Positions 11,759 to 37,415 of a DNA stretch of 44,719 nucleotides are shown piece after piece. The stretch covers positions 1 through 44,719 of the forward strand of contig JAVBXM010000237.1 in the NCBI GenBank assembly GCA_030824585.1, given 5' to 3'. Every line of letters starts with the position of its first letter. The first letter of the stretch is position 1. This DNA comes from Phaeospirillum sp. GTDB lineage: Bacteria; Pseudomonadota; Alphaproteobacteria; Rhodospirillales; Magnetospirillaceae. The notes beneath the pieces are model-generated. The model was not told the DNA's origin and searched no databases. It saw only the letters and a program-made list of their open reading frames with translations. Both the position numbers and the translations under genes were made by a program.

Positions 11759-11787
11759 TTGACCTTTACAAACCGACTGTATAGTAT
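11759..11787 (+). promoter_or_regulatory. Promoter of the racemase-to-pat operon
   Basis: TTGACC (11759-11764) and TAGTAT (11782-11787) are separated by 17 bases. The predicted start near 11794 leaves a leader of about 30 bases before ATG 11823. The operator at 11768-11789 covers the spacer and the -10 box, which is the geometry of steric repression. Confidence 0.7.
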
Positions 11788-11789
11788 GT
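11768..11789. promoter_or_regulatory. TetR operator 1 (degenerate ATAC-N10-GTAT)
   Basis: A 22-bp imperfect palindrome. Read on the minus strand it starts ACATACT and ends CGGTTTGT, against ACATACT...CGGTATGT in operator 2 and ACATACT...TGGTATGT in operator 3, all with the same length. On the plus strand one half is AAAC rather than ATAC. It lies between tetR and the racemase operon, so it may serve both. Confidence 0.75.
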
Positions 11790-11822
11790 TTGTGAGGCTG
11801 TGAAGATAGGATTGCAAACACT

Positions 11823-12959
11823 ATGGGGCCCTTGGCGGATCTGAAGGTTGTCGAACTTGCCGGACTTGGTGCCGCCCCGTTCTGTGCCATGTTGCTGGCC
11901 GACCTGGGGGCGGATGTGATTCGTGTCGATCGCTCTGACGCCAGGGGAAAGGGATCGAGCTTCGACATCTTGAATCGAGGTCGCCGCTCGGTCGCCTTGG
12001 ATTTAAAAAAGCCGGCGGGCATCGCGGCGATCATGCGATTGGTCGGACAAGCCGATATCTTACTCGAAGGCTTCCGGCCCGGGGTGATGGAGCGGTTAGG
12101 ACTTGGCCCGGAGCACTGCCTGACCGCCAATCCCCGGCTGGTTTACGGCCGAATGACTGGCTGGGGGCAGGAAGGTCCCTTGGCCAAAGCTGCCGGCCAC
12201 GACATCAATTACATCTCGCTCACGGGTGTCCTGGAAGCCATCGGCACCAACAGCGCAAAGCCCGTTCCCCCACTCAATCTGGTGGGAGACTATGGCGGCG
12301 CCATGTTGATGGCTTTTGGCTTGGTTTCGGCCGTTCTGGAGGCAAAAAGCAGCGGTCTGGGCCAAGTGGTGGACGGTGCCATGCTGGATGCCGCCGCACT
12401 TACCATGAACCGCTTCCTCGGCCTCCACGCCGAAGGTAAATGGCGCCTTTCCCGCCAGTCAAACTACCTGGATGGCGGCGCCCATTTTTACGACACCTAT
12501 GCCTGCGCCGATGGCCGCCATGTGGCCGTCGGCCCAATCGAGCCGCAATTCTACCGCCAACTGCTGGAGCACCTCGGGGTGGAGCTTGACCCATCCCACC
12601 AATTGGACGCTCAAACATGGCCAGAGCAGAAGCAGATCCTGGCTCACGCCTTCATGGGGAAAACCCGTGATGAATGGACGGACTTGCTCGAAGGAACCGA
12701 CGCCTGCGTTTCCCCCATTCTTGATCTGGTCGAAGCCCCGGAGCATCCACATAACGCCGCACGGCAAACCTTCCGCTCCCTGGACGGCGTCATTCAGGCC
12801 GCCCCTGCGCCTCGGTTCAGCCGCACCCACGCCGAACTGGACCTGCCGCCACCACAGGCCGGCCAGCACGATGAACAAGCCCTTTCCCGCTGGGGCATCT
12901 CCACCGAGGAAATCGCGAGCTTCCGCCACGGCGGGGCCTTTGGCGCCGATCAACCTTAA
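11823..12959 (+). CDS. Alpha-methylacyl-CoA racemase
   Basis: A 378-residue member of the family III CoA-transferase fold, but of the racemase branch. It epimerises the alpha carbon of 2-methyl-branched acyl-CoAs by proton exchange. The racemase catalytic residues are in place: His126 in [12 protein letters not shown], Asp156 in [10 protein letters not shown] and Glu240 in [11 protein letters not shown], matching His126, Asp156 and Glu241 of the mycobacterial enzyme. The Asp used by true family III CoA-transferases is not in the corresponding place. As first gene of the ring-degradation operon it suggests that the pathway forms 2-methylacyl-CoA intermediates of mixed configuration, such as 2-methylglutaryl-CoA from 3-methylbenzoate. 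ATG 11823 has AGGA upstream. Confidence 0.85.
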
Positions 12960-12988
12960 AAACCTTCAACACTGCGAAGAGGACCGTC

Positions 12989-13831
12989 ATGGCCATCGAC
13001 TTCCACTGCAATTTGTTCACTCCCGAGGCCATCGAGCGGCACTGGTACGGCCAACCCGAAATGTACCGGCTGATTAAGTGGTGGAAGATGGAGGAGCGTG
13101 TGAAAGGCGTCACCGTGGATGACTTCGTCGCCATGATGGACGCCGCCGGGCTGGAAAAAGCGCTGATCCCCGCCATCCGCATGATGTCTTATCAGAAGAA
13201 GACCATGGTCTGGGACATCACCGAGGAAGAGGTCCACGCCGCTGTCAGTCGCCACCCCGACCGGCTGGTGGGCCTGTGCGGCTTCAATCCCCTGCAGAAA
13301 CTAGACAGTGTCCGCAACGTGGAACGGGCAGTGAAGGATTACGGATTCAAGGGCGTCTACATCCACACCTACGGCTTCGGCATTCCGCTCGACCACCGGC
13401 TGTACTACCCGCTTTACGCCAAGTGCGTCGAACTGGGCATCCCGGTCTCCATGCAGGTCGGCCACTCCGCCGAGCACATGCCCAACGAACTCGGCCGCCC
13501 CATCCACCTCGACAACATCGCCCTCGACTTCCCCGAGTTGAAGCTGATCGGCGCCCATACCGGCTGGCCGTGGACCGAGGAGATGATCTCGTTAGCCTGG
13601 AAGCACGAGAACGTCTATCTCGGCATCGACGCCCACAATCCGAAATACCTGGAACCCACCCTGGTCCATTTCATGAAGACCCGGGGCCAGAACAAGGTGA
13701 TCTACGGCACAAACTACCCGGCCATCACCCATGCCGAGTCCATCGCCAGCATCCGGAACGAGCTAGGACTGACCGAAAAGGTGGCCGACAAGATCCTGCG
13801 CGGCAACGCCGCCCGCGTTTACGGGCTCTGA
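12989..13831 (+). CDS. Amidohydrolase-fold protein with an incomplete metal site
   Basis: A 280-residue TIM-barrel protein of the amidohydrolase-2 (ACMSD/LigW-like) superfamily. The first-strand motif is IDFHCN, with His6 but without the second His of the usual HxH. His159 (VGHSAEH) and His190 (IGAHTGWPW) are present. The catalytic Asp at the end of the last strand is replaced by Asn242 (YGTNYPA). A mononuclear or altered site, or a non-catalytic role, is therefore likely. Hydrolysis of a ring, lactone or thioester, or decarboxylation, would be possible in the family. It is encoded 29 bases after the racemase and two bases before the thiolase, so it belongs to this pathway, but its substrate is unknown. 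Confidence 0.75.
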   Translation: MAIDFHCNLFTPEAIERHWYGQPEMYRLIKWWKMEERVKGVTVDDFVAMMDAAGLEKALIPAIRMMSYQKKTMVWDITEEEVHAAVSRHPDRLVGLCGFNPLQKLDSVRNVERAVKDYGFKGVYIHTYGFGIPLDHRLYYPLYAKCVELGIPVSMQVGHSAEHMPNELGRPIHLDNIALDFPELKLIGAHTGWPWTEEMISLAWKHENVYLGIDAHNPKYLEPTLVHFMKTRGQNKVIYGTNYPAITHAESIASIRNELGLTEKVADKILRGNAARVYGL

Positions 13832-13833
13832 TC

Positions 13834-15027
13834 ATGGCAAACGCAAACGACATCGTCGCCATCAGCGCCGTCCGCACCCCCATGGGAGCCTTCGGCGGCA
13901 GCTTCAAAGACATCCCCGCCTACGACTTGGGCGCCGTCGCCATCCGCACCGCGCTGGAGCGGGCCGGCATCACCGGCGAACAGGTGGATCAGGCGATCTA
14001 CGCCAATTGCCGGCAGGCGGGCAACGGCCCCAATCCGTCGCGAACCGCCGCCGTGCGCGGCGGCATCGCCCTCGACCGGCCGGTCTTCACCGTCAACATG
14101 GCCTGCCCGTCGGGCATGAAGGCGATGATGCTGGCCGGGTTGGAGCTCGCCAGCGGCGGCTCCAAGATCATCGTCGCCGGCGGCATGGAATCCATGAGCA
14201 CCATGCCCTATCTGCTGAAGAACGTCCGCTGGGAAGGCTTCAAGCTGGGCGACAAGACCCTGTCCGACAGTTGGAGCGACACCCTCGACCCCCTGTGCGG
14301 CTACGGCATGGGCATGACCGCCGAGAATCTGGTGGCCAAATATTCCATCGGCCGCCAGGAGCAGGACGACTTCGCCCTGGCCTCGCAGAAGAAGGCGGCG
14401 GAGGCCCAGGCGGCGGGAATGTTCGACAGCGAGATCGCGCCGGTGACCCTTGCCGCCAGCCGCGACCGCGACGAGACCGTCGTGGCGCGTGACGAATCCA
14501 TCCGGCCCGACACCTCGCTGGAGCGCATGGCCAAGCTGAAGCCGGTGTTCAAGAAGGATGGTTCGATCACCGCCGGTAATTCCTGCGGTATGGGCGACGC
14601 CGCCGCCGCCTTGGTCCTGACCACCCGGGGACATGCAAAATCTATTGGTAAGGCGCCGCTGTTCTCGGTGGTGGCCTCGGCTCAGATCGCGGTCGAACCC
14701 GCCACCATGGGCGACGGCCCGGGCTGGTCCATCCCCCTGGCCCTGACGAGGGCGGGGATGACCCTGCCCGACATGGACTTCATCGAGGTCAACGAGGCCT
14801 TCGCCGCCCAGATGATCGCCAACGAACGGGTGTTGGGCTGGGACCGCGCCCGGGTTAACGCCTTCGGCGGCGCCATCGCGCTGGGCCATCCCACCGGCAG
14901 CACCGGCGCCCGCCTCCTGGTGACCTTGGACAACATCCTGCGCAAGCGGGACAAGGAACTGGGGATCGCCTCCATCTGCGGTGGTGGCGGCGTCACCACC
15001 GCCATGATCATCCGGCGGGAGAGTTGA
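13834..15027 (+). CDS. Thiolase (acetyl-CoA acyltransferase)
   Basis: A 397-residue thiolase. The nucleophilic Cys91 is in VNMACPSGMK, the His loop is NAFGGAIALGHPTGSTGAR, and the second catalytic Cys lies in SICGGGGVTTAM near the C-terminus. It cleaves 3-oxoacyl-CoAs with CoA and should act on 3-oxo(methyl)pimelyl-CoA and shorter 3-oxo intermediates. ATG 13834 follows the amidohydrolase stop by two bases; no strong ribosome-binding site is visible, so translation may be coupled. A second thiolase (29012-30202) is in the opposite operon; the two probably act on products of different chain length or branching. Confidence 0.9.
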   Translation: MANANDIVAISAVRTPMGAFGGSFKDIPAYDLGAVAIRTALERAGITGEQVDQAIYANCRQAGNGPNPSRTAAVRGGIALDRPVFTVNMACPSGMKAMMLAGLELASGGSKIIVAGGMESMSTMPYLLKNVRWEGFKLGDKTLSDSWSDTLDPLCGYGMGMTAENLVAKYSIGRQEQDDFALASQKKAAEAQAAGMFDSEIAPVTLAASRDRDETVVARDESIRPDTSLERMAKLKPVFKKDGSITAGNSCGMGDAAAALVLTTRGHAKSIGKAPLFSVVASAQIAVEPATMGDGPGWSIPLALTRAGMTLPDMDFIEVNEAFAAQMIANERVLGWDRARVNAFGGAIALGHPTGSTGARLLVTLDNILRKRDKELGIASICGGGGVTTAMIIRRES

Positions 15028-15029
15028 GC

Positions 15030-15794
15030 ATGGCCGCCGAAATCCTGCTGGAAAAGCGCGCCGACCGAATCGCCGTGCTGACCCTCAACCGCCCCAACGC
15101 CCTGAACGCCATCGACCGCGCCATGGTGCAGGCCTTGCGTTCTGCCATCCGAGACATCGAGGCCGACGATACCATCGACGTGGTGATCATGGCGGCGGCG
15201 GGCGAAAAGGCGTTCTGCGTCGGGGTCGATCTCAAGGAGCGCCAGACCCTGAGCGACGACGAAGCCTACGCCTTCCGCCTAGGCGAGCTGTTCCCCATGT
15301 ACGAGGAACTGGAGAAGCGGACCAAGCCGGCCATCGCCGCCGTCAACGGCCATTGCCTGGCCGGCGGATTCGAGCTGGCGTTGTCCTGCGACATGATCCT
15401 GGCGACCGAGCGTTCCACCTTCGCCCTGCCCGAGGTCAAGTGGGGATTGATCCCGGCGGCCGGCGGCTGCCGCAAGCTTCCCAAGCTGATCGGGACGGCG
15501 CGGGCCAAGGAACTGATCCTCACCGCCGCCACCATCGACGCATCCAGGGCGGAACACCTCGGCCTGATCAACCGCATCGTCCCGGACGAAAGCCTGATGG
15601 ACGAGGCGCTGGCCCTGGCCAGGCGGGTCCAGGCCAATGTCCAGGTGGCGGTCAGGGGGGCCAAGCGCTGCATCGATCACGCCATGGACATGGAGCACTC
15701 CACCCTCTTCGACATCGAGGTCTCCACCGGCTGTTACGCCGCCAAGGATCGCAAGGACGGCATCGCCAAATTCGCCGAGCGCAAGCTGTCATAA
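15030..15794 (+). CDS. Enoyl-CoA hydratase (crotonase family)
   Basis: A 254-residue crotonase. The CoA-binding/oxyanion region is EKAFCVGVDLKER; both catalytic Glu of hydratases are present, one in AGGFELALSCD and one in ALPEVKWGLIPAAGG. It should hydrate a trans-2-enoyl-CoA in the beta-oxidation part of the pathway. ATG 15030 is preferred over an in-frame TTG at 15024 because GGGAGAG lies seven bases before it. The gene is directly followed by a 3-hydroxyacyl-CoA dehydrogenase, the next step. The exact acyl chain cannot be read from the sequence. Confidence 0.88.
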   Translation: MAAEILLEKRADRIAVLTLNRPNALNAIDRAMVQALRSAIRDIEADDTIDVVIMAAAGEKAFCVGVDLKERQTLSDDEAYAFRLGELFPMYEELEKRTKPAIAAVNGHCLAGGFELALSCDMILATERSTFALPEVKWGLIPAAGGCRKLPKLIGTARAKELILTAATIDASRAEHLGLINRIVPDESLMDEALALARRVQANVQVAVRGAKRCIDHAMDMEHSTLFDIEVSTGCYAAKDRKDGIAKFAERKLS

Positions 15795-15809
15795 AAGGGA
15801 ACATCACAG

Positions 15810-16667
15810 ATGAAAAAGATCGCCGTCATCGGCGCCGGTGCCATGGGGCGCCAGATCGCCCTGCAATGCGCCCTGTCCGGCTTCAAGACCAGCCTAAACG
15901 ACTCGCGTCCCGAAGGCCTGGCCGAGGCGGAAAGCTTCGCTCGTCAGTATCTGGATGACCGAGTGGCCAAGGGCCGGCTGAGCGAGCCGCAAAAGACGTC
16001 GGCGCTGGCCAATCTTCACTTCACCGCCGATCTGGCCGAGGCGGCTGCCGACGCCGATCTGGTGATCGAGGCCATCATCGAGAAGTTCGAGCCCAAGGCC
16101 GAGTTGTTCAAGGCCCTGGACCGGCTATGTCCGGCCAAGACCATATTCGGCAGCAACAGCTCGAATATGCGGGGGTCAAGGCTGGCCGAAACCACCAGTC
16201 GCCCGGACCGGGTGCTGAACATCCATTTCTTCAATCCGGCCCTGGTGATGGAACTGGTGGAGGTGGTGGTCCACCACAAGGTTCCGGACGAAGTGACCGA
16301 TGCAGTGGTGGACTTCTGCAAGCGTATCGGCAAGGCCCCGGTGGTCATGCGCAAGGAAATTCCCGGCTTCATCGTCAACCGGGTCTTCCGTGCCCTGACC
16401 CGCGAGGCGGTCAGCCTCTACGAGGAGGGCTACGCCAGCGCCGAGGACATCGATCTGGCGGTGACCAAGGGCCTCGGCCACCCCATGGGGCCGCTGCGCC
16501 TGCTGGACACCACCGGCATCGATGTCTCCTACCTGGCACGCCAGGACGAGTACGAGGAAACCGGGGTCGAGGCCGCCAAGCCCAACCGGATCCTCAAGGA
16601 CATGTACGAAAAAGGCGAGTGGGGCAAGAAGACCGGCAAGGGTTTCTATACCTACCCCAAGGATTGA
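15810..16667 (+). CDS. 3-hydroxyacyl-CoA dehydrogenase (HBDH type)
   Basis: A 285-residue NAD-dependent dehydrogenase, the usual length of the short single-function family. The N-terminal Rossmann motif is [15 protein letters not shown]; the catalytic His-Glu region appears as [18 protein letters not shown], and the conserved [11 protein letters not shown] and [22 protein letters not shown] are visible. It oxidises 3-hydroxyacyl-CoA to 3-oxoacyl-CoA, fitting 3-hydroxypimelyl-CoA (or a methyl derivative), the product of the ring-opening hydrolase encoded two genes on. The start ATG lies 15 bases after the hydratase stop with AGGGAAC upstream. Confidence 0.9.
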
Positions 16668-16678
16668 AGGAGCATTTG

Positions 16679-17746
16679 ATGTCCAAGCAAGCTTACCGCT
16701 GGGTGATGACGGGTGTCGGCCAACCCATGGAGAGGCAGGCGTTCGACCCTTTCCCGCCCAGCCACGGCGAAGTGGTGATCGAGATCTCCGGTTGCGGCGT
16801 CTGTCACACCGACCTTGGCTACTACTACGACGGTGTTCGCACCAACCATGCCCTTCCGCTGACGCTAGGCCACGAAATCAGCGGCCGCGTGGTTGCCGTC
16901 GGAGCCGGGGCGCAAAACTGGCTGAACAAGGCGGTGATCGTGCCGGCGATGTTCCATTGCGGCGAGTGCGATCCCTGCAAACGCGGCAAGGGAACCCTGT
17001 GCATCAACGAGAAGATGCCCGGCAACGACATCCATGGCGGCTTCGCGTCCCACATCAAGACGCCCGCCCATGGCCTGCTGGCGGTGGATGAAGCCCGCTT
17101 GGCCAAGGCCGGTCTCAACTTGGCCTCGGTCTCGGTGGTGGCCGACGCAGTCACCACCCCCTTCCAGGCGGTAAGCCAGTCTGGGATCGGCCCGGGCGAC
17201 CTCGCCATCGTCAATGGGGTCGGCGGGGTCGGTGGCTATTGCGTCCAGATCGCCAAGGCCTTCGGCGCAACGGTGATCGCCATCGACGTGGACCCGGTCA
17301 AGCTGGACATGATCGGTCAATATGGCGCCGACCTGATCCTGAATGCCCGCGAGATGGATGGCCGCGAGTTGAAGAAGCGCGTTGCCGCCTTCGCCAAGGA
17401 ACGGGGCCTGCGCCCCATCGAGTGGTTCGTGTTCGAATGCTCGGGCACCAAGGTTGGCCAGGAAACTGCCTTCGGCCTGATGGTCAAGGGATCGACCCTG
17501 GCGGTGGTGGGCTTCACCATGGACAAGGTCGAGATTCGCCTCTCCAACCTGATGGCGCTGCACGGCCGCGCCCTGGGCAACTGGGGCTGCGTCCTGCCCA
17601 ACTACGGGCCGACCCTGGACATGGTCCTGGCGGGTAAGGTGCAGATTCTGCCCTTCGTCGAGGAACACCCGCTGGACCAGATCAACGAGGTGTTCGATGC
17701 CGTCCATCATCGCCGGATCGCCCGGCGCGTCGTATTGGTTCCCTGA
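16679..17746 (+). CDS. had: 6-hydroxycyclohex-1-ene-1-carbonyl-CoA dehydrogenase (Had)
   Basis: A 355-residue zinc alcohol dehydrogenase. The catalytic Cys is in [19 protein letters not shown], the catalytic His-Glu in [11 protein letters not shown], and a four-Cys structural zinc site in [16 protein letters not shown]. The NAD motif is [18 protein letters not shown]. In the class I benzoyl-CoA pathway Had oxidises the hydroxyl placed by Dch, giving the 6-oxo compound cut by Oah; here Oah and Dch are the next two genes, which decides the assignment. ATG 16679 has GAAGGAG upstream. With a methylated ring it would act on the methyl analogue. Confidence 0.9.
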
Positions 17747-17748
17747 TC

Positions 17749-18858
17749 ATGATCAAAGATATCGTCACCAAAACCGCGCCTTCGCAGTTGGTGGATCATT
17801 CCGCCTGCCCAGCGCCGTCGTCCCCAGGCATCCTCTATGAGAAACACCCGACGGCGGCGGAAGGACTCTTCAACGTCTGGGTCACTATCGACAACCCCAG
17901 GCAGTTCAACAGCTATTCCATCGACATGCTGAAGGCGTTGCAGCAAGCCTTCAGAACCGCCGGCGAGGCCCGCGACGTGGTCGCGGTGGTGCTGACCGGC
18001 GCCGGCAGCAAAGCCTTCTGCACCGGCGGCGACGCCATGGAATTCGCCACCTATTACGCCGGCAATCCCCAGGAATTCCGCAGGTTCATGCGGCTGTTCG
18101 ACGACACCATCTCGGCCATCCTCGCCTGCGACAAACCGGTGATCTGCCGGGTCAACGGGCTGCGTAGCGGCGGCGGCCAGGAGTTGGGCCTAGCGTGCGA
18201 TTTGTCGGTCGCCCAGGATCTAGCGGTGTTCGGCCAGGCTGGCCCCAAGCATGGCGGCGCCATGGTCGGCGGTGCCACCGACTTCCTGCCGGTGATGATC
18301 GGAGCGGAGGAGGCCATGGCCGCCGGTATCCTGTGCGATCCCATCTCGGCCCACAAGGCGCGGCGGTTGGGCATGATCAGTGCGGTGGTTCCGGCGCTGA
18401 AGGTCGACAGCCGCTTCATCCCCAACCCGTCCGTCGTCACTGACCGAGTGGTGGACGAGTTCGGCGAATTCATCCTGGGCGAACCCAAAGCCGGTGGGGA
18501 GATCAAGGCGGCCAAGGAGATCGTGGCCAAGGGCGAGATCGACCTGTCGCGTCTCGACGCCAAGGTTGAGGAGCTGTGCTCCAAATTCCTCCATATGTCG
18601 CCCGAGGCCCTGACCAAGACCTTGGAGGAATTGCGCAAGCCCAAGCTCGACGCCTGGAACCGCAGCAAGGAGGGCAACCGCGCCTGGGCCGCCATCAACA
18701 TGACCACCGAGGCCCATGCCGGATTCAAGGCCTTCGCCGTGGGCAACAAGGAGGTCGGCCGCGAGGTCAACTTCGTGGCTCTGCGCCAGGCCCAGGCCAT
18801 AGGCGCGCCATGGACACCTGACCTGATCGAGGCGTTGATGCCCGGGAGGATTTCATGA
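17749..18858 (+). CDS. oah: 6-oxocyclohex-1-ene-1-carbonyl-CoA hydrolase (Oah)
   Basis: A 369-residue crotonase-family ring-opening hydrolase, longer than ordinary hydratases and close to the known length of Oah. Family landmarks are FNSYSIDMLKALQQAF, AFCTGGDAMEFATYYAG, the Gly-rich loop LRSGGGQELGLACD, and GPKHGGAMVGGATDFLP. The C-terminal extension has the conserved AGFKAFAVGNKEVGREVNFV. It adds two waters to the 6-oxo-enoyl-CoA, hydrating the double bond and breaking the C1-C6 bond to give 3-hydroxypimelyl-CoA or its methyl analogue. The start follows the had stop by two bases; the stop overlaps the dch start (ATGA). Confidence 0.93.
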   Translation: MIKDIVTKTAPSQLVDHSACPAPSSPGILYEKHPTAAEGLFNVWVTIDNPRQFNSYSIDMLKALQQAFRTAGEARDVVAVVLTGAGSKAFCTGGDAMEFATYYAGNPQEFRRFMRLFDDTISAILACDKPVICRVNGLRSGGGQELGLACDLSVAQDLAVFGQAGPKHGGAMVGGATDFLPVMIGAEEAMAAGILCDPISAHKARRLGMISAVVPALKVDSRFIPNPSVVTDRVVDEFGEFILGEPKAGGEIKAAKEIVAKGEIDLSRLDAKVEELCSKFLHMSPEALTKTLEELRKPKLDAWNRSKEGNRAWAAINMTTEAHAGFKAFAVGNKEVGREVNFVALRQAQAIGAPWTPDLIEALMPGRIS

Positions 18859-19625
18859 CCGATACCCCCCTGCAGACTTGGCTTGACCGCGACGGCAGGC
18901 TGCTACGCCTGCGGCTAAATCGGCCCAAGGCCAATATCGTCAACGCCGCCATGATCAAGGCCCTGGACGCCGCCCTGGCTGCGCAGGAGGGCAACAAGGA
19001 CCTGTCCGCCGTCCTGCTGGACCATGCCGGGCCGCATTTCAGCTTCGGCGCCAGCATCGAGGAGCATTTCCCCGACCAGATGGCCGACATGCTGGCGGTC
19101 CTGCACGGACTGCTGAAGCGCATGCTGTTCTATCCTTGCCCCATCCTGGTGGCGGTTCGCGGCCAATGCCTGGGTGGTGGCCTGGAGGTCGCCCTGGCCG
19201 GCAGCATGATTCTGTGCTCTCCCGACGCCAAGCTGGGCCAACCCGAGATCAAGCTGGGAGTCTTCGCCCCCGCCGCCAGTTGCCTGCTGCCCGAGCGGAT
19301 CGGCCCTGCGGCGGCGGAAGACTTGCTTTACACCGGCCGCAGCGTCGGTGCCGACGAAGCGCTACGCATGGGAGTGGTCGACCGCGTTTCTGAAGACCCG
19401 GAGGCAGCCGCACTGGCTTGGTTCGACGAACATTATGCCCCGTTGAGCGCCTGCGCGTTGCGGTTTGCCGTCAAGGCGGCTCGTGGGGCTTTGGCCCACC
19501 GGGTATCACTGCGCCTCGACGAGGTCGAGCGGCTGTGCGGCGTCGATCTCATCAAGACGAAAGACATGATGGAAGGACTCGTGGCGTTCCAGGAAAAGCG
19601 CCCCCCCAAATGGAGCAATTGCTAG
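18855..19625 (+). CDS. dch: Cyclohexa-1,5-diene-1-carbonyl-CoA hydratase (Dch)
   Basis: A 256-residue crotonase of the dienoyl-CoA hydratase branch. Landmarks are LRLNRPKANIVNAAMIKALD, HFSFGASIEEHFPDQM, the loop GQCLGGGLEVALAGSMILCS and LGQPEIKLGVFAPAAS. It adds water to the cyclic diene made by the reductase, giving the 6-hydroxy-1-ene-CoA used by Had. Wide sequence distance from the two ordinary hydratases in the cluster and adjacency to oah and had make the assignment firm. GGAGG lies just before ATG 18855, which overlaps the oah stop. Confidence 0.92.
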   Translation: MTDTPLQTWLDRDGRLLRLRLNRPKANIVNAAMIKALDAALAAQEGNKDLSAVLLDHAGPHFSFGASIEEHFPDQMADMLAVLHGLLKRMLFYPCPILVAVRGQCLGGGLEVALAGSMILCSPDAKLGQPEIKLGVFAPAASCLLPERIGPAAAEDLLYTGRSVGADEALRMGVVDRVSEDPEAAALAWFDEHYAPLSACALRFAVKAARGALAHRVSLRLDEVERLCGVDLIKTKDMMEGLVAFQEKRPPKWSNC

Positions 19626-19629
19626 AGCC

Positions 19630-20049
19630 ATGGCCATCCTTATCACCTATCGAGGGACCACCTATCCGTGGCAATGCGACCATATGGGCCATGTCAACGT
19701 CATGTGGCACGTCTCCAAGTTCGACGAAGCGACATGGCCATTCTTCTCGGCCATGGGGCTGACGCCTTCCTATCTGCGGGGACGTTACGCCATGGCGGCA
19801 GTGCAGCAGAACATTACCTACAGGGCAGAGTTACTAGCGGGCGACATCATCGAAGTCCGCTCCCGGGTTCTGGAGGTGCGCGATAAGGTCATCCGCTATG
19901 TCCACGAGCTTTATCGGATCGAGCCCGAGGCCCTTTGCACAGTCTGCGAGTTGACGACGGTCCATTTCGACCGCGAAACACGCCGTTCCTGTCCTCTCCC
20001 GCCGGAGATTCGAGCTCAGGCGACGCGGTTGATGGATCACGACGCATGA
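19630..20049 (+). CDS. Acyl-CoA thioesterase, 4HBT hot-dog family
   Basis: A 139-residue single hot-dog protein. The active-site helix start is WQCDHMGHVNVMWHVSKFDEA, with the Asp-x-x-Gly-His-Val-Asn pattern of 4-hydroxybenzoyl-CoA thioesterase relatives. It hydrolyses an acyl- or aroyl-CoA. In anaerobic aromatic clusters such enzymes are thought to release CoA from dead-end or excess thioesters. It lies four bases after dch and just before the acetyltransferase gene. The real substrate is unknown. Confidence 0.85.
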   Translation: MAILITYRGTTYPWQCDHMGHVNVMWHVSKFDEATWPFFSAMGLTPSYLRGRYAMAAVQQNITYRAELLAGDIIEVRSRVLEVRDKVIRYVHELYRIEPEALCTVCELTTVHFDRETRRSCPLPPEIRAQATRLMDHDA

Positions 20050-20078
20050 TCCCGGTTTCGCCATGAAAGGATAGGGGT

Positions 20079-22670: not shown

Positions 22671-22676
22671 TAGACT

Positions 22677-23582: not shown

Positions 23583-23592
23583 GATATGCCTC

Positions 23593-24432: not shown

Positions 24433-24453
24433 AAGTGTCTCCTCCCTTCCCGA

Positions 24454-25746: not shown

Positions 25747-25750
25747 GATG

Positions 25751-26965: not shown

Positions 26966-26987
26966 ACATACTAGGTGGTCGGTATGT
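26966..26987. promoter_or_regulatory. TetR operator 2 (ATAC-N10-GTAT), bcrC promoter
   Basis: A 22-bp palindrome beginning ACATACTAGG and ending TCGGTATGT on the plus strand, with ATAC and GTAT separated by exactly ten bases. It is 55 bases before the bcrC start. On the minus strand a -10-like TAGTAT/TATGTA overlaps it, but no good -35 box lies 16-18 bases away, unlike at the other two operators. The promoter may need an activator, or bcrC may also be read from the operon upstream. Confidence 0.85.
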
Positions 26988-27863: not shown

Positions 27864-27864
27864 A

Positions 27865-29010: not shown

Positions 29011-29011
29011 G

Positions 29012-30202: not shown

Positions 30203-30227
30203 GGGAGGAAATCCTTCTTGAATGATG

Positions 30228-31010
30228 TCAGCTACCGCGCTTGGCGAGGCGCTCCAGATAGGCGTCATGGCCCTCGCTGCGATGGGCGATGCCCTGATAG
30301 GCAGCGGCCATCTCCAGGGCGTTGTCCATGGACGAATCGCGGGCCTGACGCAGCAGCGACTTGGCCATCCGCACCGAGTCCGGCGGATTGACCGCCATCC
30401 GCCGGGCCAGGGCCTTGGCCTCGTCCAGCAAGGCGTCCTGCTCGACGACCTTGGACACCAGTCCCCAGGCCAGCGCCGTCTCCGCCGCAATCGGGTCGCC
30501 GGTCAGCGCCATTTCGGCGGTCCGGGCATAGCCCACCACCCGTTGCAGGAACCAGCAGCCGGCATCGCCAGGGATCAGGCCCAGTTTGACGAAGATTTCG
30601 CCGAAGCTGGCCTTGGTGGAAGCGATGCGGATGTCGCACATGCAGGCGAGATCGCAGCCAGCCCCCATGGCGGGGCCGTTGACGGCGGCAATCAGGGGAA
30701 CCTCCAGCCGGTCGATGGCCCGGGGAATCCGGTGGATGCCGGCTCGGTAGCGGCGGCGAACCTCCATGGAGTCGCCACCGAACATGCCACTCTTGCCAAT
30801 CATATCCTTGAGATTGCCCCCGGCGCAGAAGGCCGACCCGGCCCCGGTCAGGATCACCGCCCGCAGGGAGCGTTCGGCGTTGATCTGCGCGAAGGCGGCT
30901 TCGAAGGCGGCGAACTGTGACTCCTCGCCCAGGGCGTTGCGTTCTTCTGGGCGGTTCATTGTCAGCGTGACGACCCCGTCCGCCTCGTCCCACAGTAGGA
31001 AATCGCTCAT
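30228..31010 (-). CDS. Enoyl-CoA hydratase
   Basis: A 260-residue crotonase. Start ATG 31010 (MSDFLLWDEADGVVTLTMNR). The oxyanion region is GSAFCAGGNLKDMIGKSGMF; the active-site helix is GPAMGAGCDLACMCDIRIAS, where the first catalytic Glu of typical hydratases is replaced by Asp, and SFGEIFVKLGLIPGDAGCW carries the second Glu. The Asp change may mean another crotonase activity, such as isomerase. It lies between the heterodimeric ACAD genes and thiolase, as expected for beta-oxidation of a dicarboxyl-CoA. Confidence 0.85.
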   Translation of the reverse strand: MSDFLLWDEADGVVTLTMNRPEERNALGEESQFAAFEAAFAQINAERSLRAVILTGAGSAFCAGGNLKDMIGKSGMFGGDSMEVRRRYRAGIHRIPRAIDRLEVPLIAAVNGPAMGAGCDLACMCDIRIASTKASFGEIFVKLGLIPGDAGCWFLQRVVGYARTAEMALTGDPIAAETALAWGLVSKVVEQDALLDEAKALARRMAVNPPDSVRMAKSLLRQARDSSMDNALEMAAAYQGIAHRSEGHDAYLERLAKRGS

Positions 31011-31023
31011 GTCGCAAAGGTCC

Positions 31024-32064
31024 TTACATTGGATCAGCTTGGGCGGCGGTGACAAAGGCCCAAAGCCCGTCGCCACCCCTGGGAATCACGATGTCAGCGA
31101 TACGTTCGGCCCATTCGGCCTCGGAACCGAACTCGGCCCGCCAGGACCACAGGCGGCGGCTGGCGAAATGCAGCGGATGCTCGCGGGCGAAGCCCATGGC
31201 CCCCAGCACCTGATGGGCGATGGAGGCGGCCTTTCCCGCCGCCTCGCCGGTCCTGACCTTGGCGGCCGCGATGGCGAAGTCCTTGTCTCGCCCGACATCA
31301 AGGGCAACAAAGGCCTGCTCGGCCGCCATGGCGGCGGCTGCGCTTTCCTCGGCGAGGGCCGCCAGCATATGCTGAACCGCCTGGAAGCCGCCGATCAGCT
31401 TGCCGAATTGCTGGCGTTCGCCGGCATAGGCCAAGGAGCGCTCCAACAGCGTGGCGATGGCTCCGGCCATCTGGGCCGAACGCAGCAGCGCCCCCAACTG
31501 GCGCGAGGTCTCGGCCCCGAAGCCGGGGGGGCAGGGCGCCGACTGGATCGATACCCCGGCGAAAACCAGATCATCCCGGGGCTCGCCCGCCAGATTGTCG
31601 CCGGGAACAACCGCACAGCCTTCGACGGGCAGAAGCACGACCTGGTCACAGGCGGTGGCCACCACATGGGTGAGATGCCGTCCCCAGGCAACCCTGGACA
31701 ATCGCCCCCGGGCGGAGCCGCCTTCAACAACCAGACCATCGCCAGCCGCCAGTCCCAGCCGTCCCTCCGGCGCCTCGATCCCGCTCATGGCCAGCAGCCA
31801 GCCCGCAGCGATGGCTTCGGGAAGCGGCAGCGGCAAAGCATGACGCCCGGCTGCCATCGCGACCAGATAAGCCTCGCGCCAGCCGAATTCCCCCCCCTTC
31901 TCCTTGGGCTCGGCCAGCATGATCGGCAGGCCGTTCTCCTCCAGCTTCGACCAAAGGTCACCCTCCCAGCCGCCGCCCTCGGAACGCTCCAGTAAGGTAT
32001 GATCGACGGAATCCACCAGCAGCCGCTGGATCATGTCCTCGATGATGTTGCCGAGCTCGCTCAT
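31024..32064 (-). CDS. Acyl-CoA dehydrogenase, small (PimD-like) subunit
   Basis: A 346-residue acyl-CoA dehydrogenase-fold protein, shorter and more divergent than usual, with a degenerate flavin loop and without the catalytic Glu in the usual C-terminal place. The C-terminal helices are recognisable (AYAGERQQFGKLIGGFQAVQ, QVLGAMGFAREHPLHFASRR). Such proteins pair with a larger subunit to form heteromeric dehydrogenases of pimeloyl-CoA or sterol side-chain type. Its start overlaps the stop of the large-subunit gene (ATGA at 32061-32064), which supports a one-to-one complex. Confidence 0.85.
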   Translation of the reverse strand: MSELGNIIEDMIQRLLVDSVDHTLLERSEGGGWEGDLWSKLEENGLPIMLAEPKEKGGEFGWREAYLVAMAAGRHALPLPLPEAIAAGWLLAMSGIEAPEGRLGLAAGDGLVVEGGSARGRLSRVAWGRHLTHVVATACDQVVLLPVEGCAVVPGDNLAGEPRDDLVFAGVSIQSAPCPPGFGAETSRQLGALLRSAQMAGAIATLLERSLAYAGERQQFGKLIGGFQAVQHMLAALAEESAAAAMAAEQAFVALDVGRDKDFAIAAAKVRTGEAAGKAASIAHQVLGAMGFAREHPLHFASRRLWSWRAEFGSEAEWAERIADIVIPRGGDGLWAFVTAAQADPM

Positions 32065-33206
32065 CGCAATCCCAATCCTCGCGCAATGATTCCTCGCAGG
32101 ATTTCCCGCGTGCCGCCCCGAAGCGAAAAACAGGGCGCCAGTTGAAGTAGGTTGGCGTGAACCCGCTCGGCGTCCCCCCCCGACAGACTGGGCTCCAATC
32201 CCAGAACATCGTGGAGCATTTCCGGCAGCGACTGCTCGAAACTGGTGCCCAGATCCTTGACCAATGACGCCTCCAGATTGGGGGCATGGCCGGCCTGAAG
32301 TTGGCCTGCAATGGACAGAGACATCTGCCGCAACACCGCAACATGAGCCATAGCCTTGCCGATGGCGACACGAAGGCGATCCCCCCCGTGCCCCTCAGCA
32401 GCAACGGTAACCATCTGGATCAGGGCTTGTAGGCTGGAAAGATAGCGTTCAGGACCGCTTCGTTCATAGGCAAGTTCCGCCATCACTTGGTTCCAACCGT
32501 CGCCCTCTCTACCGATCACAGCCGAGGCAGGCAGGCGTACATCCTCAAAAATCACCTCGTTGAAATGCTCGCCGCCGGTGATGTCGGTGATGGGCCGGAC
32601 GGTCACACCGGGGGCCGACAGATCGATCAGCACCTGGGACAGGCCGGCATGGCGGTCCTTGGCCTCGCCGGAGGTTCGTACCAGGGCGATCATGTAATGG
32701 GAGAGATGGGCGAAGGTACTCCATATCTTTGCGCCGTTGAGGACCCAGCCGCCATCCGCCGGTTTGGCCCGGCTCCGCACCGAAGCGACGTCGGAACCCA
32801 CATTGGGCTCGCTCATCCCCACGGCGAAATAGACCTCACCCTTGGCCATGCCGGGCAGCAGTTCGCGGCGCTGCTCCTCGGTTCCGTAGCGCAGCAGCAG
32901 CGGCCCGCTCTGGCGGTCGGCGAACCAGTGGGCGGCGACCGGCGCGCCGGCAGCCAGCACCTCCTCCAACATGACGTAGCGCTCCAGGGCTGAACGCTCG
33001 CCGCCGCCAAACTGTTTCGGCCACGTCATGCCGATCCAGCCCCTGGCACCCAGTGCCTTGCTGAACGTGGCATCGAAGCCGGTCCAGGTGTCGGCACGGC
33101 GTTCGACCGGCATTCCTCGCAATGCCTCGGTTAGAAATTCCCGGACCTCACACCGGAGATTCTCGGCCTCCGGCGGAAGAGAGAGCGGCTCAAATCTAAA
33201 ATTCAT
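32061..33206 (-). CDS. Acyl-CoA dehydrogenase, large (PimC-like) subunit
   Basis: A 381-residue flavoprotein with FAVGMSEPNVGSDVASVRSR (flavin/substrate loop), WVLNGAKIWSTFAHLSHYMI, and a catalytic-base candidate in ELAYERSGPERYL. The C-terminus FSLRGGTREILRGIIARGLG is typical of PimC/FadE-like large subunits. With the overlapping small-subunit gene it should oxidise a dicarboxyl-CoA (pimeloyl- or methylpimeloyl/glutaryl-CoA) using ETF. It starts two bases after the ligase stop. The substrate range is inferred from family and context. Confidence 0.88.
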   Translation of the reverse strand: MNFRFEPLSLPPEAENLRCEVREFLTEALRGMPVERRADTWTGFDATFSKALGARGWIGMTWPKQFGGGERSALERYVMLEEVLAAGAPVAAHWFADRQSGPLLLRYGTEEQRRELLPGMAKGEVYFAVGMSEPNVGSDVASVRSRAKPADGGWVLNGAKIWSTFAHLSHYMIALVRTSGEAKDRHAGLSQVLIDLSAPGVTVRPITDITGGEHFNEVIFEDVRLPASAVIGREGDGWNQVMAELAYERSGPERYLSSLQALIQMVTVAAEGHGGDRLRVAIGKAMAHVAVLRQMSLSIAGQLQAGHAPNLEASLVKDLGTSFEQSLPEMLHDVLGLEPSLSGGDAERVHANLLQLAPCFSLRGGTREILRGIIARGLGLR

Positions 33207-33208
33207 GA

Positions 33209-34783
33209 TTAACTCATCGTCCTCAGGCGGAACCGTTGAATCTTACCTGTTGCCGTCTTCGGCAGGTACTCAACAAAATGAATCCATCTTGGATACTTAT
33301 ATGGAGCCATTTCCTTCTTGCAGAAGTCCCGAATTTTATCCGCCAGCCCGTCACTTTTCCTGTTCGGGTCCTTCAAGACAATCCAGGCCTCCGGCTTGAT
33401 CAGTCCCGCCTCGTCCGCCCTGGCCACCACCGCTGCCTCTAGCACATCAGGGTGCGAGATCAGCGTGCTTTCGATCTCGAAGGGAGCCACCCAGATACCG
33501 CCGACTTTCATCATGTCGTCGTTGCGCCCGCAGAAGTAATAATAGCCATCCTCGTCACGGCGATAGGTGTCGCCGGTGTCCAGCCAGCCGTTCTGGATGG
33601 TGGTGCTGGTTTTTTCAGGGTTATTCCAGTACTTACGGGTAACTGAAGGCCCCTTGACCCATAGTCGGCCGGTCCTGTCGTCAAGAACCTCCTTCCCCGC
33701 CTCGTCAATGATCTTCACCTGATAACCAGGCACCACCTTGCCGCTGGTGTTGGCCCTCATCTGACCGATCCGGTTGCAGATATAGGTGTGCAACGCTTCG
33801 GTTGATCCCACGCCATCGGTGATAGGGATGGGGGCGATCTCGGTCCAGCGTCGCTGCAATTCCTCGGGTAACGCCTCGCCCCCGGAAACACAGCGACGCA
33901 AGGAGGCCAGATCCTTGCGGCCCAGGGCCGAACTGGCCAGAAGTGCTGCAAGGTAGGTGGGAACGGCAGCGAATACAGTAGGCTTGAATGTGCGGAAGAT
34001 TTCCGCCGAGATGTCCGGTGTCGGCCTCCGAGTATCCAGTACCGCTGTTCCTCCCACCCATAAGGGAAAAGTCATGGCGCAGCCCATGCCGAAGGCGAAG
34101 AACAGCCTGGGAATGGAATAGAATATGTCGCTTTCCTGGCAGCCCTGGGCATTGACGGCATAGAGCTGGCAAGTGGCGACGATATCCTGATGGACATGGA
34201 TCACCCCCTTCGGCCGCCCGGTAGTGCCGGAGGAGTACAGCCAGAAACATTCGTCGTCGGCAGAAGCCGGGATAGCGCTCAGGGTTGTCGGCTCCACCGC
34301 TGCCAAATCATGCAGGCAAGAGTCGCCATGCCTGACCAACACCAGGTGAGCCGGTTTAACGCCCTCCTCGAGGGCAGCATCTACCGGCACCCGGAATTCC
34401 TCCGAATAGATCAGCGCCTTCGCTCCGGAATCCGAGATGATGAAGGCGTAATCAGGTGGCGTCAGCATGGTGTTCAACGGCACCGGAATGATCCCGGCCT
34501 TCACTGCCCCCCAGAAGGCGTAATAGAATTCGGGGGCGTCCTTGACGACCATCAGCATCCTATCGCCGGGATGGAGGCCAAGGCGCAGAAGAGCGTTACC
34601 ATATCGATTGACATTGGCGACCAGGGTTTCGTAGTCCACCGTCTCGGCGAAGCTGAGAATGGCGGCCTTCTTTCCCCGACCCTCGGCGACATGCCTGTCG
34701 ATGAAGGGAACCGCGACGTTGAATGGGGTCGGGAAATGAAATTCCGGACCGGTTTCGCCCTGGCGCATTTCAACCTTTTGCAC
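33209..34783 (-). CDS. Benzoate-CoA ligase family enzyme (aryl-CoA ligase)
   Basis: A 524-residue AMP-forming ligase of the benzoate-CoA ligase family. The AMP motif is YSSGTTGRPKGVIHV (183-197), then GGEALPEELQRRW, GWLDTGDTYRRDEDGYYYFC and DDMMKVGGIWVAPFEIE. The catalytic Lys514 lies in LPKTATGKIQRFR, which fits the PX4GK motif targeted by Pat-type acetylation. It would turn the imported aromatic acid into its CoA thioester with ATP to AMP, forming both the reductase substrate and the likely inducer. The start is GTG 34783 with GGAGG five bases upstream; ATG 34768 is the alternative. Specificity for benzoate against methylbenzoate cannot be read from the sequence. Confidence 0.9.
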   Translation of the reverse strand: MQKVEMRQGETGPEFHFPTPFNVAVPFIDRHVAEGRGKKAAILSFAETVDYETLVANVNRYGNALLRLGLHPGDRMLMVVKDAPEFYYAFWGAVKAGIIPVPLNTMLTPPDYAFIISDSGAKALIYSEEFRVPVDAALEEGVKPAHLVLVRHGDSCLHDLAAVEPTTLSAIPASADDECFWLYSSGTTGRPKGVIHVHQDIVATCQLYAVNAQGCQESDIFYSIPRLFFAFGMGCAMTFPLWVGGTAVLDTRRPTPDISAEIFRTFKPTVFAAVPTYLAALLASSALGRKDLASLRRCVSGGEALPEELQRRWTEIAPIPITDGVGSTEALHTYICNRIGQMRANTSGKVVPGYQVKIIDEAGKEVLDDRTGRLWVKGPSVTRKYWNNPEKTSTTIQNGWLDTGDTYRRDEDGYYYFCGRNDDMMKVGGIWVAPFEIESTLISHPDVLEAAVVARADEAGLIKPEAWIVLKDPNRKSDGLADKIRDFCKKEMAPYKYPRWIHFVEYLPKTATGKIQRFRLRTMS

Positions 34784-34835
34784 CTTTTCCTCCCTGGCTT
34801 TTCGTTTCTTCGTTTGCCGTAGAAATGGGCGGCGA

Positions 34836-36131
34836 TCAGGCCGCCTTGCTGCCGCCGCCACGGCGCTTCTGCTCGATCATCTGGAAGTAGCTTTCCAGTC
34901 GGTTCTTGACGTTGGCAGCCGAGAAGTAGCGGGGGTCAACCAAATCGGTTTCAATGAAGGCGCCGGGCTTGCCGGTACGGCGTTCCACTTCCTTCATCAT
35001 CATCAGCTGGCCGGCGGAGAAGCTGTTGCAGCTCTTGATCGAGTTGATCAGCAGGCCATCGGCCTCGTACTCCTCGATATATTCGGCCAGCATGTCGACG
35101 CGGGTCGGCAGATTCAGGTTGGAGTATACGCCGATGACATAGTCGGCCAGGCTTTCCAGCGGATTATCTGGATCATGACGGAAGCCGTAATCATAGACTC
35201 CGCCGACCTTGGTGTAGCTGGACGCCACCACCACCGCGCCTTCATCAACGAACATCTGCCAGAATTCACGGAAGTGGGTCCAGTTGGGCGGGCCTTCGAC
35301 CACCAGACGGTATTTTTGGTCGGTGAGGACCGTTCCATCGGGCGTGACGAAGCCTTCCTTACGATCGATGCGGCCCTGAATTTCCTGGCGCAGCATCTTG
35401 TAGTAGTCGACGGCGTCCTGGGTGCCGCGAAAGGCGGTAAAGATCGGGCCGATGTAGTACACGCCGCCAAAATAGGAATCGATGGGGGACGGCTTGTTCT
35501 TGGCCGACTTGAGGCACCACACCAGATCATCCTCGGCCTTGGCAGAGGCCCGCATGTACTCACGCAGACGATCGATGTCGAATTTGACACCCGAAACCTG
35601 CTCCATGCCGGGAATGACCACTTCCTTCAGCTGCTTGATCACATAGTCGCGCATGTTCGAAGTGACCCGCCCGTCACCCTCGTAAGGCACGTGCAGCATG
35701 ATGGTGGGACACTTGTACTCTTCGCGAAGAAGCTCGAACCACTTCATGAAAGTGTAGCAGCCGGTGTAGCAGAGCATCAGCATGTCGGGGGCCGGAAAAG
35801 GCTTGCCGTTGGGGGCGATGTTGCCCTTGGACATCATTCCGATGTCAGCCTTCACGTAGGTGCAGACATCCTCTGAATGTCCGCTCTTCTCCGCCTCCAT
35901 GATGTGCCCGCCAGAAATCTTCTTCATTCCATTCTGGATGGCGTTGATTTCGGGCAGATTGTTCAGGATACCGAAGGTCATGAATAACTCGTTCAGATTC
36001 CCAGGAACAAAGGTGGACGACACCTTCCGCCCCGTCTCATGCTTGGACGTGATCGCGTCGTAGTTGCGGGCAATCATTTCCTTTTGCTTCAGCATGGAGG
36101 CTTCTTTGACGACACTCTTATCGGCAGCCAT
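34836..36131 (-). CDS. bcrB: Benzoyl-CoA reductase subunit B
   Basis: A 431-residue HgdB-family protein. Features are MLCYTGCYTFMKWFELL, MLHVPYEGDGRVTSNMRDYV, YFGGVYYIGPIFTAFRGTQD, RLVVEGPPNWTHFREFWQMF and NSIKSCNSFSAGQLMMMKEV; the Cys in the first and last are expected iron-sulfur ligands. With BcrC it forms the electron-accepting, substrate-binding half of the reductase. Start ATG 36131 with AAGGATG upstream. In Thauera the order is bcrC-B-A-D in one block; here bcrB is carried in the transport/ligase operon, before the ligase gene, and apart from bcrC, bcrA and bcrD. Confidence 0.93.
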   Translation of the reverse strand: MAADKSVVKEASMLKQKEMIARNYDAITSKHETGRKVSSTFVPGNLNELFMTFGILNNLPEINAIQNGMKKISGGHIMEAEKSGHSEDVCTYVKADIGMMSKGNIAPNGKPFPAPDMLMLCYTGCYTFMKWFELLREEYKCPTIMLHVPYEGDGRVTSNMRDYVIKQLKEVVIPGMEQVSGVKFDIDRLREYMRASAKAEDDLVWCLKSAKNKPSPIDSYFGGVYYIGPIFTAFRGTQDAVDYYKMLRQEIQGRIDRKEGFVTPDGTVLTDQKYRLVVEGPPNWTHFREFWQMFVDEGAVVVASSYTKVGGVYDYGFRHDPDNPLESLADYVIGVYSNLNLPTRVDMLAEYIEEYEADGLLINSIKSCNSFSAGQLMMMKEVERRTGKPGAFIETDLVDPRYFSAANVKNRLESYFQMIEQKRRGGGSKAA

Positions 36132-36169
36132 GACTTTTTCATCCTTGTTCGAGTTAAGCGCGCGCCGCG

Positions 36170-37354
36170 TCAGGCGATTTTGCATCCCGTTCCGGGGTCG
36201 TTAACCGCCTTTTGGGCCACGCCCAGGACGACTTCCTTTCCGCCTTTCACTTGGCGGAGATAGACGTCCTGAATGGGATTGTGGGACTTGGAGAGGATGA
36301 AGGTTCCGCGCGGGCTCTTGATTTCGGCCTTTTCCATGGCGGCGATGATTGCAGCCTTGGCACCGGCGTCACCTTTCGCAGCCTCCAGACCGACGGCCAT
36401 CAACTGGCCCGCGTCATACCCCTGGACGGCATAGAAGTCGGCTTCCTTGCCATAGGCGGCCTTGTACGCAGCCCGGAACTTGTGGTTCTCCGGATTGTCT
36501 AGCGCGTCGGCGTAATGCAGGGTAGTGAGGATACCTTCTGCCGCCTCGGCGTAATCCGGCAGAACACCGTCGGTGAGGAATCCCGGCCCCAGCAGCGGAA
36601 TGGACTTCAAGCCGACGGCAGCGTAGTCCTTAATAAACTTCGAGGCCCCCGACCCGGCGAAGAAGGCATAAACCGCGTCGGGCTTCAACGAGGCGATTTC
36701 GGTCAGATGGGCCTGGAACTCGGTGTCCGGAAATGGCAGGGCCATCTGCTTGACCACCTTGCCGCCCAGGTCGGTGAAGCGATCGACGAAGGCGTTGATC
36801 ATCTCTTCGCCCGCCGCATACTTCCAGGTGATGGTGACGACGTTCTTGTAGCCGCGATCGATAGCCACTTTGCCCATGGGGGCGTTGGCCTGCCAATTGC
36901 TGAACGATGTCCGGAAGATGTTCTTGGCGCAAAGCGGCCCCGTGGCCGCGTTGAATCCGGCATTCGGGATAATAGTCAGAACTTCGGTTTCACGGGCGAC
37001 CTTGACCATGCCCATGGCCACTCCGGAATGCACGGGGCCGACCAGAAAATCCACCTTCTCGCCTGTCACCAACCGGTGGGTGTTCTCCGGGCCTTTGGCC
37101 GGATTGGATTCGTCATCGACCATGACGAACTCGACCTCGCGGCCGGCGATCTTCCCGCCGCGTTCCGCAAGGGCCAGCTTGATGCCGTTGGTAACGCCGA
37201 TCCCGGGACCGGCATAGGCCCCGCCATGAGACAACAGCAACCCGACCTTTATTTTGGCCTGCTGGCCGATGGCGAAGCGCGTCGGAACAAAGCCCAAGGC
37301 CGCAGCCCCGGCGATTCCCGTCAAAACCGACCGACGATTTAAAGGACCAAACAT
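36170..37354 (-). CDS. ABC transporter substrate-binding protein (Liv-type)
   Basis: A 394-residue periplasmic binding protein of the branched-chain amino acid/aromatic acid (Peripla_BP_6) class. The signal peptide MFGPLNRRSVLTGIAGAAAL has a twin-arginine motif followed by an Ala-rich stretch, so export may go through Tat. The mature part begins AKIKVGLLLSHGGAYAGPGI. It should catch an aromatic acid and hand it to the LivHMGF-type transporter encoded divergently at 38290-41603. It is the first gene of the long minus-strand operon, and the operator at 37393 covers its promoter. Confidence 0.9.
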   Translation of the reverse strand: MFGPLNRRSVLTGIAGAAALGFVPTRFAIGQQAKIKVGLLLSHGGAYAGPGIGVTNGIKLALAERGGKIAGREVEFVMVDDESNPAKGPENTHRLVTGEKVDFLVGPVHSGVAMGMVKVARETEVLTIIPNAGFNAATGPLCAKNIFRTSFSNWQANAPMGKVAIDRGYKNVVTITWKYAAGEEMINAFVDRFTDLGGKVVKQMALPFPDTEFQAHLTEIASLKPDAVYAFFAGSGASKFIKDYAAVGLKSIPLLGPGFLTDGVLPDYAEAAEGILTTLHYADALDNPENHKFRAAYKAAYGKEADFYAVQGYDAGQLMAVGLEAAKGDAGAKAAIIAAMEKAEIKSPRGTFILSKSHNPIQDVYLRQVKGGKEVVLGVAQKAVNDPGTGCKIA

Positions 37355-37386
37355 GTTCCCCTCCCTGGGCAGCCCGCATAATTAGG

Positions 37387-37415
37387 TTTACAACATACTG
37401 GTTGACTGGTATGTG
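37387..37415 (+). promoter_or_regulatory. Promoter of the SDR/ABC transporter operon
   Basis: TTTACA (37387-37392) and TATGTG (37410-37415) are 17 bases apart. The start codon of the SDR is at 37446 with AGGGAGG in front. Operator 3 fills the space between the two boxes. Confidence 0.6.

Follow-up and report, generated by a model that had tools for sequence, protein, structure and literature searches.

The closest described relative of the locus considered here is the MbdR regulon of Azoarcus sp. CIB, in which MbdR (PDB 4uds) controls the mbd cluster for 3-methylbenzoate. According to the accessible text of the paper describing it, MbdR recognizes the operator ATACN10GTAT and takes 3-methylbenzoyl-coenzyme A (CoA) as its inducer, while benzoyl-CoA and phenylacetyl-CoA give no response (PMC4424350). 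Discrimination of the acyl group has been proposed to involve residues within 107-123 and 165-176 of the protein, and promoters that respond to MbdR were expected by its discoverers to be very rare in nature (PMC4424350). A second relative is the mbr cluster for 4-methylbenzoate of Magnetospirillum sp. pMbN1. The DNA analysed here, referred to as the window, is a stretch of 44,719 nucleotides from Phaeospirillum sp. (assembly GCA_030824585.1, contig JAVBXM010000237.1) that carries a catabolic gene cluster with one TetR gene and three 22-bp palindromes. Very probably, this cluster constitutes an alphaproteobacterial MbdR regulon, in which the TetR protein would repress four catabolic units until an aryl-CoA releases the repressor.

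The TetR gene (10998-11630, - strand, probable start ATG 11630) encodes a protein of 210 amino acids. It is the only TetR gene among the 38 open reading frames (ORFs) of the window that were scanned against Pfam, out of 150 ORFs of at least 100 amino acids, and it adjoins operator 1, as the original prediction had stated. The closest solved structure is that of MbdR (4uds, E 9e-90), the next chain following at 8.6e-13. An alignment with MbdR gives 138 identical residues out of 202, including 35 of the 42 in the DNA-binding domain; a closer kinship to an unrelated subfamily was not borne out. Judged by its sequence, the protein is an MbdR orthologue. In the stretches proposed to discriminate between acyl groups, 22 of 29 residues are kept (13/17 in 107-123 and 9/12 in 165-176). 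The next closest TetR of the host genome is 24 % identical (E 1.7e-9). The homologue in Paramagnetospirillum caucaseum SO-1 is 99.5 % identical, with one change in 210 residues, and that in a Rhodospirillaceae metagenome-assembled genome (G149) is 92 % identical; the window comes from a relative of SO-1 that belongs to its genus.

The three palindromes are found exactly where they had been predicted. Operator 1 (11768-11789, ACAAAC-N10-GTATGT, ACAAACCGACTGTATAGTATGT) separates the TetR gene on the - strand from the CoA-transferase/ring-cleavage unit on the + strand (11823-22670). Operator 2 (26966-26987, ACATACTAGGTGGTCGGTATGT) lies 54 bp from the start codon of bcrC (start 26911, - strand), and operator 3 (37393-37414, ACATACTGGTTGACTGGTATGT) separates the divergent binding-protein unit (start 37354, - strand) and SDR/transporter unit (ATG 37446, + strand). 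The three sites head four catabolic units and the TetR gene, as proposed for the transcription units of the cluster, and operators 1 and 3 each stand between two divergent transcripts; from its position, operator 3 would serve both directions, in agreement with the prediction. All three had been described as ATAC-N10-GTAT, with the half-site and spacing of the MbdR operator. That core is indeed the one published for MbdR, and operators 2 and 3 carry it exactly; operator 1 has AAAC in one half, and for this reason the exact core is present only twice in the window. Overlap with promoter-like boxes, claimed for each site, was obtained for two of the three: judged by consensus matches only, boxes on both strands (9/12 bases each) overlap operator 1, and a - strand pair, TTGACA-N16-TATGTT (10/12 bases), overlaps operator 3. 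Operators lying over promoter boxes are a feature of the CIB mbd regulon, a likeness that would hold for operators 1 and 3.

The two exact cores in the window compare with 0.05 expected from dinucleotide shuffles or 0.19 from plain composition. In the 4.94-Mb genome the bare core occurs 13 times, with a chance level between 4 (backwards control) and about 20 (plain composition), so that these eight bases cannot define a regulon alone; genome counts of the bare core were rejected as proof. The 22-bp motif ACATACY-N8-RGTATGT, allowing at most one mismatch, is present in three places in the genome, which are operators 1, 2 and 3, while the backwards control gives none. From composition, 0.8 such sites would be expected genome-wide with at most one mismatch and 0.02 with none, against three and two found. 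The proposed genome scan for sites outside the cluster hence had a divided outcome: the bare core is found elsewhere, the full operator in the cluster only. With up to two mismatches there are six places against four in the backwards control, which makes the looser matches uninformative. Within the window, four matches with up to three mismatches were found where 1.27 are expected (3 of 100 shuffles reach four). A site at 20704, with three mismatches, was rejected because it lies within a coding region. A further bcr cluster, located on contig C41 of the same genome, gave no site with up to two mismatches, and upstream of the ligase gene, which lies inside the operator 3 unit, none was found with up to three.

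At E ≤1e-30, 4 of the 317 genomes in the host order have an MbdR relative, the host itself among them; at E ≤1e-35, the same is true of 2 of 399 genomes sampled from the order to which Aromatoleum toluolicum belongs, with A. toluolicum counted. In the 17 genomes of the genus, the 22-bp motif with at most one mismatch occurs three, four and three times in the three genomes with MbdR, nine of these ten being cluster sites, and once in total in the fourteen without MbdR (none at E ≤1e-30); the backwards pattern gives five matches over all 17. In two more distant relatives the sites also accompany the regulator. All three exact ATACT-N8-AGTAT sites of G097, with a TetR of 41 % identity, are located in the TetR cluster, and the single exact site of G674 (TetR of 46 % identity) is 3.3 kb from the TetR gene; when one mismatch is allowed, the counts become 9 against a control of 11 and 7 against a control of 5. 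In A. toluolicum (G317), 4 of the 11 matches with up to two mismatches are on the stretch around MbdR, within 16 kb, and in A. buckelii (G318) 4 of 6, within 54 kb. Because the backwards controls amount to 8 and 17, respectively, position near MbdR and not the number of matches is the signal in these Aromatoleum genomes.

The A. toluolicum cluster stands in here for that of CIB, since its MbdR is identical to CIB MbdR over 202 residues and the site before its ligase gene, ATAC-N10-GTAC, is as given for PA in the accessible text of PMC4424350. A matrix built from 11 Aromatoleum sites ranks operators 3, 2 and 1 first in the window, with 30.0, 27.7 and 25.9 bits, whereas no hit in 40 sequences simulated with a first-order Markov model exceeded 12.4 bits. 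Scored on the inner eight positions alone, the three sites rank within the best 1.4, 1.7 and 0.4 % of all positions in the window. The 11 sites were chosen by the analyst from 18 with up to three mismatches; a duplicate (L063:13137) and six sites judged weak or misplaced (L059:1940, L060:4995, L060:6498, L061:2362, L062:2375 and L071:16531) were left out. A second matrix, from four of six sites of G097 and G674 (L068:12063 and 13059 were left out), again puts the same three window sites first.

Comparison with G149 shows a footprint: the operators keep 22/22, 22/22 and 20/22 bases, operator 2 being among the fully conserved ones, while the surrounding intergenic DNA keeps 117/170, 70/114 (around operator 2) and 47/70. 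A core of 20 bp of operator 1 recurs without a change in front of the amidohydrolase genes in A. toluolicum and A. buckelii, in flanks without clear similarity by eye, which argues that the AAAC half is a conserved variant and not the result of decay. In A. toluolicum, the site preceding the binding-protein gene matches operator 3 together with its TTGACA box; an operator before that gene is likewise found in CIB at PB1, a position deduced from A. toluolicum.

The first catabolic unit (11823-22670, + strand) encodes a CoA-transferase III, an amidohydrolase, a thiolase, an enoyl-CoA hydratase, a 3-hydroxyacyl-CoA dehydrogenase, Had, Oah, another enoyl-CoA hydratase, a thioesterase and an ADP-forming acyl-CoA ligase-like protein with a GNAT domain. 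The second (22677-26911, - strand) consists of bcrC, bcrA, bcrD and a gene for a GNAT protein; BcrC, BcrA and BcrD score over their NCBIfam cut-offs. The third (27048-37354, - strand) starts with the binding protein and also specifies a ligase of the benzoate-CoA ligase family, three acyl-CoA dehydrogenases, an enoyl-CoA hydratase, a thiolase and Usp. This unit contains bcrB, for reductase subunit B, apart from bcrCAD (34836-36185, - strand; TIGR02260, 798.7 bits with a cut-off of 486.55). The fourth (37446-42895, + strand) comprises the SDR, permeases and ATPases of the Liv type and a methyl-accepting chemotaxis protein; its first permease ORF (38290-39150) was outside the Pfam scan and was named from its A. 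toluolicum match and its position.

The A. toluolicum stretches hold a counterpart of their own for 22 of the 30 window proteins compared. Fourteen proteins for uptake, substrate ligation and ring cleavage are 54-86 % identical to their A. toluolicum mbd counterparts, which is the measure of the likeness to CIB mbd used here. MbdR is 68 % identical, and the other values are 86 % for the amidohydrolase, 78 % for HCDH, 77 % for ACAD1, 75 % for Had, 72 % for ECH_b, 70 % for the thiolase, 69 % for ECH_a, 68 % for both Oah and the ligase, 63 % for the binding protein and 54-62 % for the Liv subunits. Lower identities were obtained for ACAD3 (55 %), ECH_c (53 %) and ACAD2 (34 %). Among the shared steps the main exception is the reductase, which is of the bcr type: its subunits B, C and D are each about 32 % identical to those of A. 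toluolicum, and subunit A reaches 49 % over a stretch of 202 residues. The label 'bzd-type' for the Aromatoleum reductase was rejected, as the A. buckelii subunits stay below every named Bcr and Bzd cut-off. Three further differences from CIB mbd were noted: bcrB and bcrCAD are under different operators; the ligase gene is inside the operator 3 unit and lacks an operator of its own, where CIB has PA; and operator 1, with its AAAC half, heads a unit starting with a CoA-transferase gene that was not found in the A. toluolicum stretches read. The proposed alphaproteobacterial counterpart of the mbd circuit is supported by the orthology of the TetR, the sites and their co-occurrence, but it is no copy of mbd.

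The window BcrA, BcrD, BcrC and BcrB are 98, 95, 88 and 81 % identical, respectively, to the products of the contiguous bcrCBAD genes on contig C41. That cluster differs from the one in the window by its gene order, by Had, Oah and hydratase proteins that are only 61-63 % identical and by the missing MbdR-type sites mentioned above. The arrangement of SO-1 is the same as in the window, with bcrB in the operator 3 unit and bcrCAD in the operator 2 unit, on two contigs. In G149, operator 2 stands before bcrCBAD and a second bcrB follows the binding-protein gene. In G097, one site directly precedes a bcrB gene that stands apart, and another lies before the genes from oah to bcrCBAD; the stretch in question (L058:3103-16704), with two bcrB genes, also holds the distant MbdR-like TetR (41 %) and a site near the TetR gene. 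At the nucleotide level, the window bcrA and bcrD (23593-25746) are 93 and 92 % identical to their SO-1 orthologues, compared with 99 % for bcrB and 100 % for bcrC, and their identity to the C41 copy is of similar size (94 and 90 %); the pattern looks like gene conversion.

From these observations the following mechanism is proposed. A dimer of the TetR protein would bind the three 22-bp operators (ACATAC-N10-GTATGT, with one AAAC half in operator 1) at the promoters of the four units and of its own gene, and the bound repressor would block RNA polymerase. The ligase of the third unit would activate the substrate, and the resulting aryl-CoA would release the repressor, upon which the genes for uptake, activation, dearomatization and ring cleavage would be switched on together. 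The releasing ligand is most likely 3-methylbenzoyl-CoA, favoured by the orthology with MbdR; 4-methylbenzoyl-CoA is possible in view of the physiology of Magnetospirillum pMbN1, and benzoyl-CoA is unlikely. With bcrB placed in the operator 3 unit and bcrCAD in that of operator 2, a common repressor would also coordinate the two parts of the reductase, and the split would make co-regulation from operators 2 and 3 a condition for balanced subunits. A wider proposal is put forward tentatively, with more doubt than confidence: the MbdR switch may be a portable control layer that outlives the exchange of its enzyme, here a bcr-type reductase with its own operator 2 where Aromatoleum has the mbd type, and the dedicated BcrB under operator 3 may be an exchangeable substrate-recognition subunit working with a near-generic BcrCAD, in which gene conversion would hold BcrA and BcrD close to the benzoate copy, so that the repressor would set the choice of subunit as well as the level of the pathway.

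The alternative that survives best keeps the same circuit and changes its ligand and substrate: the cluster would be the counterpart of the pMbN1 mbr cluster, with a TetR answering to 4-methylbenzoyl-CoA. In the part of PMC4268860 that is accessible, pMbN1, a Magnetospirillum, is described as having a Bcr-like reductase dedicated to 4-methylbenzoyl-CoA. An ABC system for uptake (Orf870-960) is predicted there, as is a TetR, Orf880, which the authors speculated to have a regulatory role. The reductase is twice written there as MbrBCAD beside BcrCBAD, which could reflect a subunit B apart from CAD as in the window; MbrCBAD is also used once. The accessible part does not mention operators, nor does that of PMC5874301, and the string '4-methylbenzo' is absent from the available text of PMC4424350. 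On the other side, it is the A. toluolicum mbd set, with an MbdR identical to that of CIB, that is matched by the regulator (68 %), the amidohydrolase (86 %), other ring-cleavage enzymes (68-78 %) and the ligase (68 %). The 22 of 29 residues kept in the inducer-discriminating stretches also speak for the 3-methyl ligand, and Orf880 apparently lies beside the binding-protein gene, to go by its numbering, unlike the TetR gene of the window. Taken together, this makes the 4-methyl variant rather unlikely.

It is very improbable that the palindromes are due to chance or are operators of another TetR of the genome. Such a view could draw on the 13 bare-core sites, one of which is near a different TetR-like stretch on contig C18, but the 22-bp motif with at most one mismatch is confined to the cluster and co-occurs with MbdR, and the next closest TetR shares only 24 % of its residues. 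Hardly credible at all is the similarity of sites by recent inheritance or transfer of the segment with no protein reading them: between the window and SO-1 most matching cluster proteins share 94-100 % of their residues, so that this pair carries little information, but against G149 the operators keep 64 of 66 bases amid intergenic DNA that is 61-69 % identical, the operator 1 core is shared by alpha- and betaproteobacteria although its flanks are dissimilar, and the relatives with TetR proteins of 41 and 46 % identity have exact ATACT-N8-AGTAT sites near them.

Several observations weigh against an MbdR regulon in the window. A consensus search at threshold found no promoter-like boxes at operator 2. 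Eleven of the bare-core copies are outside the window, and with up to two mismatches the motif shows no clear excess over the backwards control in six genomes (6/4, 9/7, 5/5, 6/5, 11/8 and 6/17). The Aromatoleum matrix is partly circular, since the pattern used to gather its sites came from the window itself, and since 11 of 18 were then chosen. For eight of the 30 compared proteins the A. toluolicum stretches offer no separate counterpart, namely the CoA-transferase that heads the first unit, the second thiolase, the thioesterase, the ADP-forming ligase-like protein, GNAT, Usp, SDR and the methyl-accepting chemotaxis protein. The reductase subunits exceed the bcr-type cut-offs and do not qualify as mbd-type. 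Finally, MbdR also represses its own promoter P3R, according to the accessible text of PMC4424350, and apart from operator 1, which is also upstream of the TetR gene, the sole candidate for self-repression is a tentative, weak fourth site directly upstream of that gene (11667-11688); it is fourth in both matrix rankings of the window (13.8 and 19.5 bits) and scores only 4.5 bits in G149, where it is not conserved.

The regulator-operator pair itself is already known. An alphaproteobacterial MbdR was not found in the literature by title or abstract opening, a coverage mostly outside subscription papers; within this scope three things are new: the presence of the pair in the Alphaproteobacteria, a reductase that is both of another type and split, and the AAAC variant of operator 1, which is conserved. 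The locus would extend the reach of MbdR to the Alphaproteobacteria, with operators that can be tested, and illustrates how a regulator and its operators can be retained when the central reductase is of another type. Its class I benzoyl-CoA reductase, split and apparently under common control, offers a setting in which to test how subunit B affects the choice of substrate, and the TetR gene is a concrete candidate for the control about which the pMbN1 workers could only speculate (PMC4268860, in its accessible part).

Further observations concern the reductase genes and the edges of the cluster. The host genome has three BcrB and two BcrC. The third BcrB paralogue (about 77 %) is encoded on contig C206 (G000; L051:2558-6239), where its neighbours are a gene resembling benzoate-CoA ligases and a regulator of the MarR type; bcrC, bcrA and bcrD were not found in the 40 kb read there, nor in the 8-14 kb read around its counterparts in G134, G143 and G147. 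A search for CutC gave zero matches, which only hints at the absence of a close glycyl-radical enzyme, as no search was aimed at benzylsuccinate synthase (m-xylene route). The methyl-accepting chemotaxis protein (41606-42895) ends the transporter unit, and chemotaxis may for this reason share the control by operator 3. At the other side of the window, a QatC-like protein (8111-10249) scores 211.6 bits with NCBIfam (cut-off 280) and matches PADLOC QatC with E 2.3e-57; together with neighbouring ORFs it possibly forms a Qat-like defence island; the nearby AAA_25 (3673-5835) and PD-(D/E)XK (6579-7688) ORFs are without a PADLOC match. Transposase-like ORFs (DUF4096 and HTH_38) at 43166-44476 mark the right edge of the cluster contig.

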